Shown here: piece after piece, positions 44,505 through 58,251 of the stretch
Layout: each line of letters begins with the position of its first letter
Position numbering within the stretch: position 1 is the first letter of the stretch
Source of the DNA: Paramacrobiotus metropolitanus
Lineage: Eukaryota > Tardigrada > Eutardigrada > Parachela > Macrobiotidae
NCBI RefSeq assembly: GCF_019649055.1
Contig: NW_026570367.1
Location: 124,001-188,000 of the forward strand
DNA: 64,000 nucleotides
Direction of reading: 5' to 3'
Notes under the pieces: model-generated
Database searches by the model: none
Told to the model about the DNA's origin: nothing
What the model saw: the letters and a program-made list of their open reading frames with translations, nothing else
Translations under genes and position numbers: made by a program

Positions 44505-46542
44505 ATGGTTTTCTCAATGGAAAGAGCTGGTTTTTATAAAACACTACATGGAACACCGCCGCCATCAGATCGACCGCGATGTGTAGTATGCGGAGACGAG
44601 TCTAGCGGTATTCACTATGGCGTCAACAGGTACACGCAACTGGTGTAATTTTCTCTTTATCTTATTGTTGCAATCGCATCTCATTGCAATACCTCGAGGT
44701 ATCTATTTTTCTACGGTAACACATACCGTTGCTTGCAGAACTTGTATAAAATAATTATACTCTCTGCGTAGTTTACACATATCTGTACATGAACATACAT
44801 ACGCAAAGACCTTTCTTTACAAGTTATGGCATTTACAAAATTTTTCTTCTATCGCTGTCGCTTCCCTTGCGGCGCCGCTAGTGTTTCTAGAGTTCTTTTA
44901 TCAATTAAATTGTATCCTGTAGCTGCATTCGTAAGCAGTTTACATATTGTTAAATGATGTACTGTTTCCGGTGGTAATTTGCTTTTTTCTTTTACAGTTG
45001 CGAAGGATGCAAGGTAAGTGAGAACTTCACTTCGGAGATCTATCGTGACAACACGTTCTGTGTGTGTGCCCTGATCCGAGCTGTACAATACATGCACTGT
45101 AATCCTTGGCAAACATTTAACGGTTTATTGGCTCGTAGTATGGCTAACTATCGTGCTGTCGAGTAAAAACATTAATCATTTTTTCAATGACTGGTTGGAA
45201 TAATTGTCAGCAGGCAGATACTTTAATATTCAGCCGCAAACCGGTTATTTTAGCTTTTCTTTTGTTAAAACATCTATAGATTTTGCGTTTCGGGTTCTGA
45301 TGTGTGTAGTCGAACTCACATCAACATCAAGATGAATCATTACGATTTTTAAAATAAAACTGTGAACACTTACAACATACACCGTACGGTGTGTATAATT
45401 AAAGTGTCGTGCGGCACCCGTTGTTAATTTCCTCTGAATGCAGAACAGTGCATTATGTATGTTTACGCTCTTCTGTTTTGTGTATGTTTATGCTCTTACG
45501 CTTTTTACGCTATTTACGTTTTGGAAACGAATGACTGACCTTTAAATGTCTTCGGCATGCCTACGATCTCTTAACGCTTCCATTTCAGGGATTTTTTCGC
45601 CGTTGCATGGTGAAAGGGATGAGTCAAAAATGCACCAACAACGAAGAATGCGAAATTACAAGATTCGCTCGCAATTCCTGCCAGTTTTGCCGGTTGAAAA
45701 AGTGCATTCGAATGGGAATGTCCCGAAGCGGTAAACACGTACATTAACGAGACGTATCTGTACATCGGTGATGCCCAACCATCGTACATGGGCTTGCAAG
45801 TCTGCGGCGCCGCTAAAACATTTTGCTCAATTTTTTAGCATCCAAAGTGGGCAGACGCCCTAAAACAACCAGCGTTAGTACGGCCGATCTCGTAGCCGCT
45901 GAGCACGCCGAGGCGTTCAATCTAAAACCGGCTCATTCCAAATCCGTCGGCCATCGCCGCTCACAGTCACTCGTTCCACGTACGCTGTCGGCCACTTTCT
46001 CCGGAGCCGATTCCCCGGCCGACTACTCACGCCCTTCTCCCAGCTCCAGTCGCAAGAATTCGGCGACCATATGTGACGGTTTGCGCAACGGTTTAAAAAG
46101 TCTCCGCACGTCTAGTCCATTTAATTCTCATCTGCATTTGCCGTATCCGGACATGAGTGCTGCGCAGTCCACATCCAAGCCGTTGACGCAGTGGTCCACC
46201 CATCCTTCGCCCATTCAGTCACCCAGTCCGCTGGATTTCTCTACCAACTCGGCCAATTATGCTCACTACACTTTCCCGGAACGTGAGCAGTCATTTCCTC
46301 ATCATTTGCAGTCCATGATGCAGCCCAAAGCAACCAACGGGACGGCATCCGGTCACGGTGCGATGTCGTCATGGTCGTCGATGGCGAAGCCGGCGGGCCG
46401 ACCACTCCTGAATGGCGACCATGTTGTTACTCTGTCCGCTGACCACTGGCCAGCGCAGTCGATGTATGAAACGCCTGCAACGATCTTCTCTCCGGGCGGA
46501 TTTAATGGTAACTGTTTCCCGGCGATTTCGGAATCTCAATAA
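44505..46542 (+). CDS. Nuclear receptor with DNA-binding domain and no visible ligand-binding domain
   Basis: A zinc-finger transcription factor. Exons: 44505-44629, 44998-45013 (only 16 nt), 45589-45730 and 45839-46542; phases close to 328 aa. A TGA sits directly before the ATG, so no upstream extension is possible in that exon. Finger 1 reads [21 protein letters not shown] (residues 26-46) with P-box CEGCKGFFRR. Finger 2 spans about C62 to C81 (CTNNEEC ... CQFC), followed by RLKKCIRMGMSRSASKVGRR. The remaining 235 residues are Ser/Pro/His-rich and low in predicted structure, with no LBD signature. PSPLDFS (P225) resembles the PxDLS motif that recruits CtBP in Drosophila Knirps. Finger 1 looks NR1-like, while the SRSASKVGRRP tail and missing LBD recall the Knirps (NR0A) group. 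Only about 600 bp remain before the next gene, leaving little room for LBD exons. Confidence 0.85.
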
Positions 46543-47168: not shown

Positions 47169-48665
47169 TCATAAAGGTCCAACTTGCCCGTTTGTAACTG
47201 CCGTTGATCCTAATTAAAAAAAACCTGTTATTTTTGGTTAAATTTCCTGATATGCAGTTACCATAAAAAATGAAATAGTGTATGTCCCATCGCCCACCAT
47301 ATATGGTTCACACGGAATTTATTAACAATATTTTCCAGTGCGATTATATTTATACGATAGTGCGTGCGTACAGATCTTAAAAACTGCAGAACTTATACTG
47401 TATAAATTATTTAAGTAAAATCTTATTTTTTGACTTGCTTTTCCAAGAGCTTTCAGTTTTATTTATCAGAGAACTGTACCTAGTGGTGCGATCTGGGATA
47501 TTCCATTTGGTAAAACCGGTATCTTTGGAAGTAAATCCACCACTTCTCTGCTACCAGGCCGGATAACGGTATCTGCGGATATTTGTACTTACTTTTAACA
47601 TGCATAAAGATTAAAATAATGCTCTACCTACGAGTGCATTAAATTTTGCTGACTACGTACGTTTCGCAGTGCAACCGGTAAAAAAGTAAAGCAATAGTTT
47701 CAAAATGACACAGTAACTGTGGTAGCAAAATCAGTGGCAAACTACAAAAGCGTAGCAAAGAAACACTAGCCATTTTCGAATTATTATGGGTACCGATGGG
47801 AAGATTGTTGATTGGGCCGGAAGGGTTGGTAGGGTTAGTGGGATTTGACGGATTGGTTCCACTTCCAGCAGGCAGGGGACCTAATCATCATCACAGTTGT
47901 CACTTACGTTAGAAGGGCCCGGCCTTCATATATGTATGGCGAATTCGGGGTACCGTGCACATGGTGAATGTTACGAAAGTTTACCTATTTGTCCGGGGGT
48001 TACACTAGTGGATCCTACAGCGAAAAAACGGCATGGAGATTTTTCGCATGATGCACATACGCCATGGCTTTAATTTTTGCTTTTATAAAATAGGTTTACC
48101 AATCGGTGCGATTTGTGGCGTTCCGGTCTGCGCCGCTGTAACGAGAATAACAACACACTATTTTTGCTGTTCTAAAAGAGCCCAAATTTTTGCAATTGCG
48201 TTTTATGGCATTCTTAAACTCCTTAAAACACACCATAAAACTGGATTACGAAGTTGACTGTATTTTATACGCAGCCAGCAATTGTTCACTGTACATACCT
48301 GGATTTGCAACAATCGGGCTAAAGGGCAAGACGGATACGGGCGCGCCAGCAATAATATTGCTTTGCACTGTGTTATACGTGCAACCTAAAAGTTGAGTGT
48401 AGTTACGTACACTGTGGAGATCGTCATAACAAAATGCGCAATTTCATTAGTTGTTTTTATTATAATTCCTATGAGTAAATTTAAAATGGAAAGTAAATTT
48501 TACCGCCAAAAGGGTAGGTATAATATGCTCCGTTGCATAAGTACAAAGTATTGCTTGCAACGACAGGGCTTGCGACTGGAAAGGTGTTGAATCCATATGT
48601 GCAACCGCCAAACGGGAAAGCGTACAATCGTCCGTTGCAGTAAAATAACTGCTGCCCCATACGCC
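47169..48665 (-). CDS. CNG-repeat secreted-type protein A (unknown family), first exon unresolved
   Basis: I do not recognise this family. Minus exons: 48665-48504, 48385-48299, 48135-48100, 48014-47985, 47880-47794 and terminal 47209-47169. The five internal exons are all multiples of three and phase 1-1. Exon 48665-48504 has two repeats: YCNGRLYAFPFGGCTYG and LYLCNGAYYTYPFGG (the latter spliced to CTYNTVQSN). The later short exons encode Pro/Asn/Gly-rich modules with ends such as TPQIAPIG, STSVTPGQIG, PTNPSGPINNLPIG and final STAVTNGQVGPL. The Cys/Tyr/Asn/Gly composition and the paralogue's signal peptide suggest secretion. The 5' exon is not settled; a candidate is 49426-49372 (ATG, 55 nt, GTAAGT donor, phase 1), the same length and phase as exon 1 of gene B, but its hydrophobic core is weak. 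Function unknown; structural, cuticle or mucus roles are guesses. Confidence 0.65.
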
Positions 48666-50137
48666 CTGAATATTTGCACATGTACCTAATACTACACAAA
48701 TAAAAGAAAATTATTTCGTTTGTACATAACGAGCCAAACACGGAGGAATAATGGCTTACAACTATTGGTAAATTAAAATTAATAAGTACTTGGAATCTTT
48801 ATATGTACTGTGTGTTGCCATTTTTTCAGCACGCGCGGAAACATTTTGGTTTGATAAACTGTTGCATGGAGTCATTAAAAAAATTTGATCCATTAACTGC
48901 ATGATTTATCTGCACTGTTATGTATTTCTTTGCCAGGATCACGGCTGCATTTGCACATGCTGGCGAGCAAACTCGAGTTTTTTTCCCGGAATCAATAGGA
49001 AAAGGTTATGGTTAGGTCAGAATCTTCTAGAGCAACTGGGATTTAGGGGATGGGCGTTTTTCTGTGATCAGCGAAGCCTGGCAAGTACTTGTCAGATGCT
49101 TATCAAAGAACAATAAAAATTAAGCTTATGGATTTCATAAAGTCAAGTTGCAGAAGGTCAGTAGCTGGAGATCACCCGCAATATCGAGAGGCTTTTGTTA
49201 CTCTTCAAATCAAACAAAACGGGGTGATTAGAAGCTGGGATGATTGGTCGGGAAGGAGAGGGGCCGAAATGCAGGGTACAGTATTCATATATAGTATTCA
49301 TATACTTTGTAATTATGGATTGCTACAGTGTGTTACATGTAAGCTGACCGTGTTAATCAGAAGACACTTACTTATAAGAAATAAAATTTCCAGACGGCTT
49401 ATAAAACCACCGATAGTATTGTTCATGCCTAAGAGGGGCAACATTTAAACTGTTTCCTGCTGTTTCAGATAAACAAACTTCCGTAGTACATAATAATTAA
49501 GGAGTGAATGCGTTAATAGTACAGCTTTAAGAATGGTAAGTGTTGAAGAAAGTACTCTAATAATTTTGAAAACATATACATATGTACGAGTATAGTCCTT
49601 TCCTTGGTGAGCGTCAACAGGACTCAGACATGTGTTAGCAAGCTTTGATGTTTTTGTTCACCTCATTAAATCATGATTACGTTGGCTTATGCAAAAGCCA
49701 TACCCGATATAAATTTGCTTGAACTGAACTTTTTAACATAATGCAACATCTCAAAACCATGCCGCCTTGTACTTGTACATTATTATTAGACTTGCTTCGT
49801 CGCTTCAAATAGCAACAGACGCACCAGCATCGAATACAAAGGACAAAATTATAATCCGTAAAGTTGAAATTGCATCGTATTTGCTGACGCTGAAGTTCTC
49901 GAAAACGTCACTGCTGAATGCTGATTACTGCGAAATGTAATCAGTGCTGTAAAGTATGACGGTTCTTCCTGTAACTGCAGCATCCCGATTATGGTATATA
50001 AGTAGTTTTATCGCACGTTAAGAACATGCACTGCAGATATACAGAGTGCCCCTATATCTTTAGATTGAGCAGTAGCATAAAGCAGCACTAGAAGTCATTT
50101 AATGTCCTGGACAAATGTTGCTGATGGTACATGACGC
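48666..50137. other. Region between CNG-repeat genes A and B
   Basis: Probably the first intron and 5' region of gene A. It holds a short duplicated AT-rich string near 49280-49310 and, on the minus strand, the candidate first exon 49426-49372. No further CNG repeat was found on either strand. Confidence 0.4.
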
Positions 50138-50868
50138 TCAGCGCCGGCGTCGCTTGCCCAGTATAGGTCCCAGCTGACCCGGCACTTGGGGTGCCGTGGA
50201 TCCTGTAATCAAAGCAAATCCTTTTTTCGAAATGGTTCATTGCTTATTTGCTTTCGTTTAGCAGACATACTGATCGAGTGAATATTCGTAGTTATGTATG
50301 AACTGCAGAGTTAAATTACCTATTGGGGCAATTTGCGACACTCCAGCCGGTAAAGCAGGAACGACCAGGGAGAGATGCAGTGTTGAAGGCAGTGTTAACA
50401 GTTGGGGTTGCGATAACCGGCGTTGCGATAACCGGATTCACAACTGTGTTGGTGTTCACGTTCGAAAACACATTGTTATACGTGCAACCTGCGCCAAATT
50501 ACGTCGGTTAACAAAATTAATATCTTTAGCGTAATCTGTTCTGCTTTGCAAAGGTCAAGAAAGACCAACCTGGATAAGGATAAGTGTAATATACGCCGTT
50601 GCAAAGGTAATATGTTCCGGTATAAGGATACGTCAAGGAAGAATATGCATAATTGTTGTAAAAATTGTTGTAATAATTATATGCACATCCTGGATAAGCG
50701 TATGTATAATAAATTCCGTTGCATAAATAATATGTCTGCGCTTCTATCTTGTAATCTGAAAGCGGGAAAGGTCACATAGAGAAGTCAGTTACGCCGTTTT
50801 CCTGTCAACTTACTTGCCAAGAATGCTGCAAACAATATGGTCAAAATGCTTCTGATATCGCTAAACAT
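50138..50868 (-). CDS. CNG-repeat secreted protein B (paralogue of A), with signal peptide and a probable single-base frameshift
   Basis: Minus exons: 50868-50814, 50755-50570, 50488-50320 and 50202-50138. Exon 1 encodes a plausible signal peptide, MFSDIRSILTILFAAFLA. Exon 2 has two repeats, YYLCNGIYYTYAYPGCAYNY and YYLCNGVYYTYPYPG (spliced to CTYNNVFSN), clearly paralogous to gene A. Exon 3 continues with VNPVIATPVIATPTVNTAFN. Near 50390-50360 the reading frame must skip one base to reach PAGVSQIAPIG, which matches PQIAPIG of gene A; exon 4 then gives STAPQVPGQLGPILGKRRRR and stop. Without the shift, the frame stops at 50316 with unrelated residues. Total coding length is 3n+1, consistent with one extra base. 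Internal exons are phase 1-1 as in gene A. Mature protein is about 140 aa and Tyr/Asn-rich. Function unknown. Confidence 0.68.
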
Positions 50869-51716: not shown

Positions 51717-52186
51717 TTAGCCATAACGACTCGAATAACGCGATCCGTATCCAGATTGGTAGTAGCGTCCTCCCGAACTATACCGGCTGTAACCTTTTCT
51801 CAGCTTGCTGTCACCACTTTTCTCTTCCACCTGGGCTTCCACGTCCCGCTGATAGCGTCTTCCGTATCCATTTGAATTGTATCGTTCGTAGCTTCCCGAA
51901 TAGGAACCGCCATATCGGCCGTAGGAACCGTATCGTTGCGGATAGTAACTGTCGTAACTTGAATATGCTGAGTAAGGTCGCCGGTAGCTTGAGTAGCTGT
52001 TGTAATACCCACCGGCATATCCTTGATCGATCAGAATTCCTGTAATTTTCAATACAAAACTTAGAATCTGGTAAATAATTTAACATAGTTTGAAATATAT
52101 GCTGGTGTTTAATATCTAGCCGAAATATCTGGTAGCTTACCGGCAAAGAAGACAATGAAGGCGAGCGCGCAGTACACTGGATTCAT
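51717..52186 (-). CDS. Secreted Tyr/Gly/Ser/Arg-rich low-complexity protein
   Basis: Two exons, 52186-52141 and 52039-51717, joined in phase 1, give 122 aa. Exon 1 is a signal peptide (MNPVYCALAFIVFFAG). The mature part is dominated by Tyr, Ser, Gly and Arg, with short repeats such as YSSYRRPYSAYSSYDSYYP, GSYGRYGGSYSGSYERY and a C-terminal RYSSRYG; a short charged insert (DVEAQVEEKSGDSKLRK) divides it. There is no Cys in the mature protein. Such composition occurs in cuticle, silk, glue and shell-matrix proteins and in some antimicrobial peptides; no family can be assigned. A TATA box lies at 52276-52285, as expected for a highly expressed, stage- or tissue-specific gene. It is on the same strand as CNG-repeat genes A and B and about 0.85 kb upstream of B. 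Confidence 0.82.
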
Positions 52187-52275: not shown

Positions 52276-52285
52276 CTTTATATAC
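52276..52285 (-). promoter_or_regulatory. TATA box of the Tyr/Gly-rich gene
   Basis: Minus-strand GTATATAAAG, 90 bp upstream of the ATG at 52186. It leaves room for a 5' UTR of about 60 nt if transcription starts about 30 bp downstream. Confidence 0.75.
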
Positions 52286-57034: not shown

Positions 57035-57598
57035 TCATAAGAAAAACACTTCCTCAATGCTATCCTGATCGGGGATTGTACCCATCACACATATAGCATT
57101 TCCTCGTTGAATTTGAACAGATAGCCGCTGCTTAAAAAACTCTTTCGCCCGCTTCTGGCCCGTGGCGGTTGCTATCCCGTTTCCAACCTTGTCAACGAGC
57201 ATTTTCGTACCGTCCCCCCATGGTCCGTAAACTTCAATCGCTGCCGCTGTGAGGTTGTATCGTGGTAAAAGCCAGGCGTGTTTGATCAGTTTGGCCCGTT
57301 CCGCCAGCTCGGCAGCGGCTCCGACGTTAAGAAAGGTGCGGTCGATATACGAAGCAGCGAGTGTGTCAACGCAGGTCACGTCAGTAGCCAGCGGTTTACC
57401 GCGCTCCCAGGGTATAAGAGTGATCACGTCCGGCCTCTTGCGATCTTTCACTGAGAGACCTTTTGGTTCCATTTTCGCTGGGAAACCGGCGGTCTTCAGT
57501 CCGCGGGTGAATTCCGCGCTAATGCCATCGTGCCGTGGCAGCCTTCCGGCTGACCGCTTACATCGGAGCCCGTGCCGGCCCAATTCATCGACTTGCAT
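57035..57598 (-). mobile_element. Non-LTR retroelement fragment, C-terminal part of the RT polyprotein (minus strand)
   Basis: One open frame on the minus strand (187 codons) encodes the C-terminal region that follows the reverse transcriptase in an abundant group of metazoan non-LTR elements. Recognised markers are GRHGLRCKRSAGRLPRHD, KRPDVITLIPWERGKPLATD, VTCVDTLAASY, and QRLSVQIQRGNAICVMG near the end. No reverse transcriptase core, endonuclease or 3' tail is present, so this is a dead fragment. It begins exactly where the sister segment on the opposite strand begins, giving a head-to-head structure. Confidence 0.8.
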
Positions 57599-57990
57599 CC
57601 GCTGATCTCCAAATTGTGCCCTACGTTGCCCGCCACGGATATAACCACTGCTACACTAGCATGGAAATTGCTAGCGGCAACGGACGAACTTCCTGCTGAG
57701 GCGTTCAGGCATGTCCAGAAAGCGTGGGATACACCGGCAGTACTACATGCGTTTTCCAGTTTGACTGAATTACGGACCACAAAGGAAGAAGTCGCACACT
57801 TGAAGGCGGTGTCAGTGCCCGAATCCGGTGCATGGATTCATGCTTTGCCAGCAGCATGTCTCGGTAACCTATTGGACAACAACGCCTTCCGTATAAGTGT
57901 AGCGCTACGTCTCGGAGCACCAATAGTTACTCCCCATGTGTGTGTTTGTGGCGGACAATCGATGAATTGGGATGTTAAGTCCATCCCAAG
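57572..57990 (+). mobile_element. Upstream part of the same retroelement, inverted (plus strand)
   Basis: This plus-strand frame encodes the stretch that normally precedes the fragment at 57598-57035: AEFRHVQKAWDTPAV-like sequence, then ESGAWIHALPAACLGNLLD, FRISVALRLGAPIVTPHVC and the VCGG knuckle. Instead of continuing into the Cys/His region it breaks off near 57971. A 13-nt string TCGATGAATTGGG, which codes part of the junction, occurs here at 57959-57971 and in reverse complement at 57579-57591. The two halves of one element thus lie head to head with a small duplication at the ends of the inversion. Beyond about 57990 no element sequence is recognised. Confidence 0.75.
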
Positions 57991-58251
57991 GGGTGGCAGC
58001 CACTTAGTTTGCACTTCATCATGAAAGGATATGCCAGCTGATAAACGCATTTATAAACACCGTTGTTTTCCTACTGTCATCCTGTCATCTAGAGCAGACA
58101 TTATTATGACGATTTATAATTTATTGAACGTTTTTCTTTGAAAATACCTTCTTTTAGGATGAACAAATAATATTACGTGTAAAACATTTATGCTTACCGT
58201 GGATTTGATCGTGTAGTGCGTTTCTTCTGTCCTGCAGGTTTTGAAAGTATC

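Follow-up and report, generated by a model that had tools for sequence, protein, structure and literature searches.

An apparently undescribed family of two-cysteine repeat genes in the tardigrade Paramacrobiotus metropolitanus

The genome of P. metropolitanus appears to contain a real family of genes built on a short two-cysteine repeat, here called the CNG module, which is undescribed as far as comparison with Pfam, NCBIfam, PDB, GTDB and IMG/VR reaches. The module was found in at least 10 genes on seven contigs, in up to ten copies per gene (assembly of 169.8 Mb in 533 contigs). A sequence-only reading of the window, the 64,000-nucleotide stretch of contig NW_026570367.1 analyzed here (bases 124001-188000 of contig 147 in the assembly), had proposed two adjacent minus-strand genes within 47169-50868, and both were recovered (Table 1); describing them as a pair was too narrow, given the size of the family. 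We lean toward the view that the window genes are members of a modular family of secreted structural proteins, in which disulfide-closed hairpins would be carried on disordered linkers within an extracellular matrix.

Gene models in the window

Gene 1 begins with an exon whose ILTILFAAFL segment reaches a peak hydropathy of 2.89, and its second exon has an HMM score of 53 bits. Between them, the two window genes carry four CNG modules (QTYYLCNGIYYTYAYPGCAY, GTYYLCNGVYYTYPYPGCTY, QQLFYCNGRLYAFPFGGCTY and NTLYLCNGAYYTYPFGGCTY), in line with the common repeat that the sequence-only reading had proposed; the full motif, searched without splicing, occurred twice in the window and in none of 100 Markov-randomized windows. 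The Pro/Asn/Gly-rich modules that it had described as ending in PIG or PGQxG correspond to tail exons that end in QIAP(I/L)G or GQxG. Four tail exons of gene 2 carry the recurring endings AQTGTPQIAPIG, STSVTPGQIG, PNGISQIAPLG and STAVTNGQVGPL, and gene 1 closes with the two-part unit also seen in gene 2, here PAGVSQIAPIG followed by STAPQVPGQLGP. A genome search, which may miss exons so short, found no such tail outside the window pair and no second copy of TVIRPGSREVVDLLPKIPVLPNGISQIAPLG from exon 7 of gene 2.

Table 1. Features of the window (by window position) and other loci carrying the CNG module (by contig position)
Feature	Position	Strand	Content
Gene 1	50868..50138	-	Signal-peptide exon, two CNG modules, short Pro/Gly tail
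Gene 1 exon 1	50814..50868	-	Start codon and predicted signal peptide MFSDIRSILTILFAAFLA; ends in phase 1
Gene 1 exon 2	50570..50755	-	186 nt, phase 1-1; CNG module 1, Tyr/Asn spacer, most of CNG module 2
Gene 1 exon 3	50320..50488	-	169 nt; end of module 2 (GCTY), Asn/Val/Thr/Pro spacer, then PALPAGVSQIAPIG in the other frame
Gene 1 exon 4	50138..50202	-	GSTAPQVPGQLGPILGKRRRR and stop
Gene 2	49426..47169	-	Two CNG modules, then six more Pro/Asn/Gly-rich exons
Gene 2 exon 1	49372..49426	-	MNNTIGGFISRLEILFLI; donor GTAAGT, phase 1; alternative ATG at 49444
Gene 2 exon 2	48504..48665	-	162 nt, phase 1-1; CNG modules 3 and 4
Gene 2 exon 3	48299..48385	-	87 nt; end of module 4 (GCTY) and spacer
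Gene 2 exon 4	48100..48135	-	36 nt; AQTGTPQIAPIG module
Gene 2 exon 5	47985..48014	-	30 nt; STSVTPGQIG module
Gene 2 exon 6	47794..47880	-	87 nt; PLPAGSGTNPSNPTNPTNPSGPINNLPI module
Gene 2 exon 7	47480..47572	-	93 nt; TVIRPGSREVVDLLPKIPVLPNGISQIAPLG
Gene 2 exon 8	47169..47209	-	GSTAVTNGQVGPL and stop
Upstream neighbor gene	51717..52186	-	Exons 52186-52141 and 52039-51717; predicted signal peptide, phase-1 intron
CNG genes A and B	C4 756-759 kb		Two genes
CNG gene	C9 486-487.5 kb		One gene, six modules
CNG gene	C164 203.6-204.7 kb		One gene, six modules
CNG gene	C55 267 kb		One gene
CNG gene(s)	C85 447-452 kb		One or two genes
CNG genes	C87 439-442.7 kb		Three exon sets

All of the internal exons had been expected to be symmetrical in phase 1. 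This is the case for exons 3 to 7 of gene 2, which are phase 1-1 throughout with GT-AG borders and include the two tiny exons of the predicted 30 to 36 nt, but it fails for exon 3 of gene 1, which at 169 nt is asymmetrical as it stands. Near 50372-50366 within this exon, the frame appears to shift by one base between the CNG modules and PAGVSQIAPIG; when the exon is read onward in the CNG frame, a different C terminus results, and the QIAPIG ending lies in another frame. The QIAPIG frame of gene 1 is backed by homology to gene 2, given that the two endings differ 3, 2 and 7 times at codon positions 1, 2 and 3, respectively. A small intron that would restore the frame was considered and rejected: the sole phase-compatible donor and acceptor would leave about 25 nt and, as judged from the sequence, the conserved PAGVSQIAPIG would be lost.

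The start of gene 2, whose first exon was located via its GTAAGT donor, can be modeled in two ways. With the acceptor at 48665, the gene stays in frame with no break but has a poor signal peptide (hydropathy of 1.89), while the alternative acceptor at 48691 provides a good signal peptide (ILFLIILGTCANIQG, hydropathy of 2.91) and requires a one-base frame break in exon 2, before YCNG. Since each window gene thus has an apparent frame break, that of gene 2 under the model with the good signal peptide, the pair may have suffered damage or been misassembled. We considered that both genes could be decaying copies whose tail exons are remnants, a scenario that is compatible with a matrix role for the rest of the family and that we rate as unlikely. 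It would account for the inconsistency between the halves of gene 1 exon 3 and for the lack of a good in-frame signal peptide in gene 2 unless a second break is assumed, and long exons of a comparable kind are intact in the paralogs. However, every modeled splice site is GT-AG, the modules are free of in-frame stops, and the four window modules show a strong synonymous bias. Nanopore reads were used to assemble this species (PMC11191345), so indel errors in the assembly are possible as well as real damage. The window genes are two of the more divergent, and possibly damaged, members of the family.

The CNG module across the genome

The module has the consensus [Y/F]-x-C-N-G-x8-[G/A]-C-x-Y, with Thr as the consensus residue before the last Tyr. 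We defined the family by the pattern [Y/F]xC[N/G][G/N]x9CxY with a C-x11-C spacing, to which all four window modules conform. The C-x11-C spacing is kept in 30 of 31 modules from six genes, and modules follow one another at 26 to 41 amino acids. The cysteines counted in mature proteins all fall inside modules, two in each: 20 in the ten modules of gene A (one of which spans an intron), 12 in the six of gene B, and 4 in the two of gene 1 and likewise of gene 2. The shorter pattern CNGxYY is not above background in total across the genome (49 matches versus 51 in a reversed control), and its matches concentrate at the family loci.

Synonymous substitutions strongly predominate between module copies, which indicates that the frame is translated and constrained. 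The four window modules pooled gave a pS of 0.67 and a pN of 0.26. For the two modules of gene 1, the values were 0.89 and 0.08, with 11 synonymous differences over about 12 sites and 4 nonsynonymous differences over 48 sites. Between the C9 and C164 genes, dN/dS was 0.135 over 136 codons. Judging from these patterns, the CNG genes encode translated proteins under purifying selection.

Window and paralog modules served as queries for the genome search, and genes were counted by reading exons in genomic sequence alone; the search results are lower bounds. The C9 and C164 genes share about 74% DNA identity; they were therefore taken as paralogs rather than haplotypes of one gene. This identity extends into noncoding stretches, suggesting a segmental duplication. 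The genes at C85:446.8-447.4 kb and C55:267.2 kb are 63 to 72% identical to gene A, and both end in QCHSPCKxQTSSxRIxVIKL, which was not seen in the other members.

The sequence-only reading had also proposed that modules are gained or lost as phase-1 exons without breaking the frame. Gene 2 and the varying number of modules among paralogs agree with the first part. In genes 1 and 2, the C164 gene and one C87 gene, a phase-1 intron splits the Gly that precedes the second Cys, and in gene A a phase-1 intron splits the second Cys codon itself. A phase-2 intron lies within a module in the C9 and C164 genes (two of the six best-modeled genes), so phase 1 is usual in the family but not universal, and the window exon with the apparent frame break also departs from the proposal.

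Among the genes whose start was modeled, genes 1, A and B and one C87 gene (C87-2) have a hydrophobic N-terminal exon ahead of the modules, as judged by hydropathy only, and by the same measure that of gene 2 depends on the acceptor chosen. Charged residues (Lys, Arg, Asp and Glu) are absent from the mature proteins of gene A (338 amino acids) and gene 1 (97 amino acids) and make up 1.6% of gene B and 4.0% of gene 2; Ala accounts for 7 to 11% across these four genes. The spacers differ by gene and are rich in Tyr/Asn, Thr/Pro or Gly/Tyr/Ser, and in Pro/Asn/Gly in the window. In the C87 genes, the CNG modules adjoin stretches rich in Tyr/Asn/Gly or Gly/Tyr/Ser.

No CNG protein matched Pfam-A, NCBIfam or PDB sequences, and no HMM search placed the repeat in a known domain family in Pfam-A or NCBIfam. 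Searches of GTDB bacterial and archaeal genomes and IMG/VR viral contigs with single-sequence queries, which reach close relatives only, found no relative, and horizontal transfer from bacteria or viruses was rejected at that reach. The repeat string had no match in the open-access literature searched, nor did that literature yield a comparable protein family described from the cuticle or eggshell of tardigrades. The earlier statement that these putatively secreted proteins belong to no described family thus stands against these resources and against a CBM_14 profile.

A possible origin of the module as a degenerate half-domain of CBM_14 (peritrophin-A) was weighed, given that CBM_14 also has a Y-x-C-x-NG-like segment of Tyr, Cys and Asn-Gly and is common in the genome, with 126 matches, of which one lies about 20 kb away from the C4 cluster. 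This origin is very improbable and was rejected on two comparisons: PF01607 did not match any of six family proteins even at E values up to 10, and when a profile of 28 modules was compared with one of 30 CBM_14 domains from this genome, the probability was below 1%. CBM_14 is, moreover, a six-cysteine domain, in contrast to the two cysteines of each CNG module, with no similarity in sequence or profile.

A candidate role in extracellular matrix

The structural reading that we favor builds on the N-terminal exons with their hydrophobic stretches, the cysteine pair that is nearly invariant, the purifying selection, the size of the family and the composition of its proteins. From these sequences we infer that each CNG module probably forms a small beta-hairpin with its turn at Asn-Gly and Tyr-rich strands, which one disulfide between the two cysteines (C-x11-C) would close. 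Asn-Gly favors a tight beta-turn. The structure prediction of a repeat pair that the sequence-only reading had suggested was run with AlphaFold on the exon 2 modules and placed strands on either side of each Asn-Gly; with a pLDDT of only 46, the model is counted as a weak hint. The modules would be strung along flexible, disordered and nearly charge-free linkers whose composition differs by gene. After secretion, the proteins might self-associate through their hairpins and join an insoluble extracellular matrix, such as the cuticle, the lining of the buccal-pharyngeal apparatus or the eggshell, where their tyrosines would be on offer for cross-linking.

Points that count against the matrix reading include the low confidence of the structure model, the frame irregularities of the window pair itself and the Thr/Pro-rich linkers, which would suit a mucin-like coat equally well. 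In such a coat, which might be a gut lining, a gland product or an egg glue, the modules would hold together Thr/Pro linkers bearing O-glycans, and the secretion would be soluble or gel-like rather than a solid matrix. Gene A, with 26% Thr, and the TPTTTTTG-type linkers that separate the modules of the C9 and C164 genes point in this direction. In the window genes, as in gene B and the C87 genes, Tyr, Asn or Gly is abundant instead of Thr, the mature part of gene 1 contains 22% Tyr, and one C87 gene passes the glycine threshold of silk-like proteins. We regard mucin-like or adhesive secretions as a somewhat unlikely explanation for the family. A role as small cysteine-rich effectors, such as antimicrobial or similar peptides, would fit the predicted secretion, the repeated cysteine-pair units and the multigene clusters; it is highly unlikely given the single cysteine pair per unit, the long low-complexity linkers and the up to ten tandem units per protein, and the near absence of charge argues against cationic peptides.

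The nearest described parallel, in kind only, is the C. elegans pharyngeal cuticle secretome, which includes low-complexity proteins that are biased against charged residues together with Cys-rich families (PMC9629831). Its APPG and IDPA-C proteins are likewise ecdysozoan and are made for a cuticle; like the putatively secreted CNG proteins, which are also depleted of charge, they are secreted, low in complexity and multigene, and some of the families are Cys-rich. The CNG module was not found in the part of that report on which this comparison by description rests; the likeness is offered as one of kind rather than descent.

Silk-like structural proteins, for which lineage-restricted evolution is typical, have a signal peptide, for which the hydrophobic N-terminal exons of CNG genes are candidates, and their definition is without any two-cysteine unit, in contrast to the defined unit of the CNG module (PMC4944945). 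Their threshold of at least 25% Gly in 80 residues is reached only by C87-2, a gene with a CNG module and a Gly/Tyr/Ser tail (maximum of 0.263), compared to 0.06 and 0.125 for genes 1 and 2. Nematode epicuticlins are also secreted tandem-repeat proteins and are cuticle proteins predicted to be disordered, but their repeats are 49 to 51 amino acids long, Ala/Gly-rich and near-perfect with GYR/YGDE motifs, whereas CNG modules are short, imperfect and two-cysteine (PMC11529277). The secreted arthropod cuticular proteins and Drosophila GYR/YLP arrays resemble the putatively secreted CNG proteins in being clustered and low in complexity, with conserved tyrosines (PMC2932725). The absence of cysteine is described as a hallmark of arthropod cuticular proteins (PMC2932725), which counts against the matrix reading given that a cysteine pair defines the CNG family and is present in every module; no cuticular-protein domain (CPR and relatives) was matched in Pfam.

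A bolder form of the matrix reading, which we put forward only tentatively, is that of a tardigrade-restricted system of protein materials, in which a charge-free, disulfide-stapled hairpin with interchangeable linkers would build the cuticle or the ornamented eggshell of macrobiotids and would owe its diversity to small phase-1 exons that were duplicated. The easily recognized module makes the members of this multigene family candidates for proteomics and localization. The family bears on how lineage-specific proteins evolve in ecdysozoan matrices, and its nearly charge-free, cysteine-paired design would be of interest for protein materials that resist drying. Should expression be confined to glands, or the genes prove to be pseudogenized, this would be an ordinary lineage-specific secreted family.

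Neighboring loci

The gene upstream of gene 1 encodes a Tyr/Ser/Gly/Arg-rich mature protein with neither cysteine nor CNG module, and a TATA-like TATATAAA is present at 52284. No relative was found elsewhere in the genome at an E value of <0.001. The gene has two exons, and its architecture of a predicted signal peptide and a phase-1 intron is like that of the CNG genes, making it a possible member of the cluster and giving a hint that matrix genes may be clustered here.

On the plus strand at 45535-46542, convergent with gene 2, an exon encoding a zf-C4 nuclear-receptor zinc finger precedes a long open frame rich in Ser and Pro. Long overlapping open frames at 57035-58024 have, by eye, the look of a retroelement remnant, and the frame at 57038-57655 had no Pfam match. 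The assembly contains five DM-domain genes, including a tandem pair on contig 5 at 2.135 and 2.163 Mb; this agrees with the published account of P. metropolitanus, which reports a 170 Mb genome, five DMRT genes and a tandem pair of more than 30 kb on scaffold 5, with the synteny block at 1.96-2.37 Mb (PMC11191345). A check of tardigrade origin by lipocalins yielded just an ordinary fatty-acid-binding protein. Elsewhere in the genome, dense CBM_14 arrays at C30:304-353 kb, and also on C37, C8 and C66, are candidate tardigrade peritrophin or cuticle genes.
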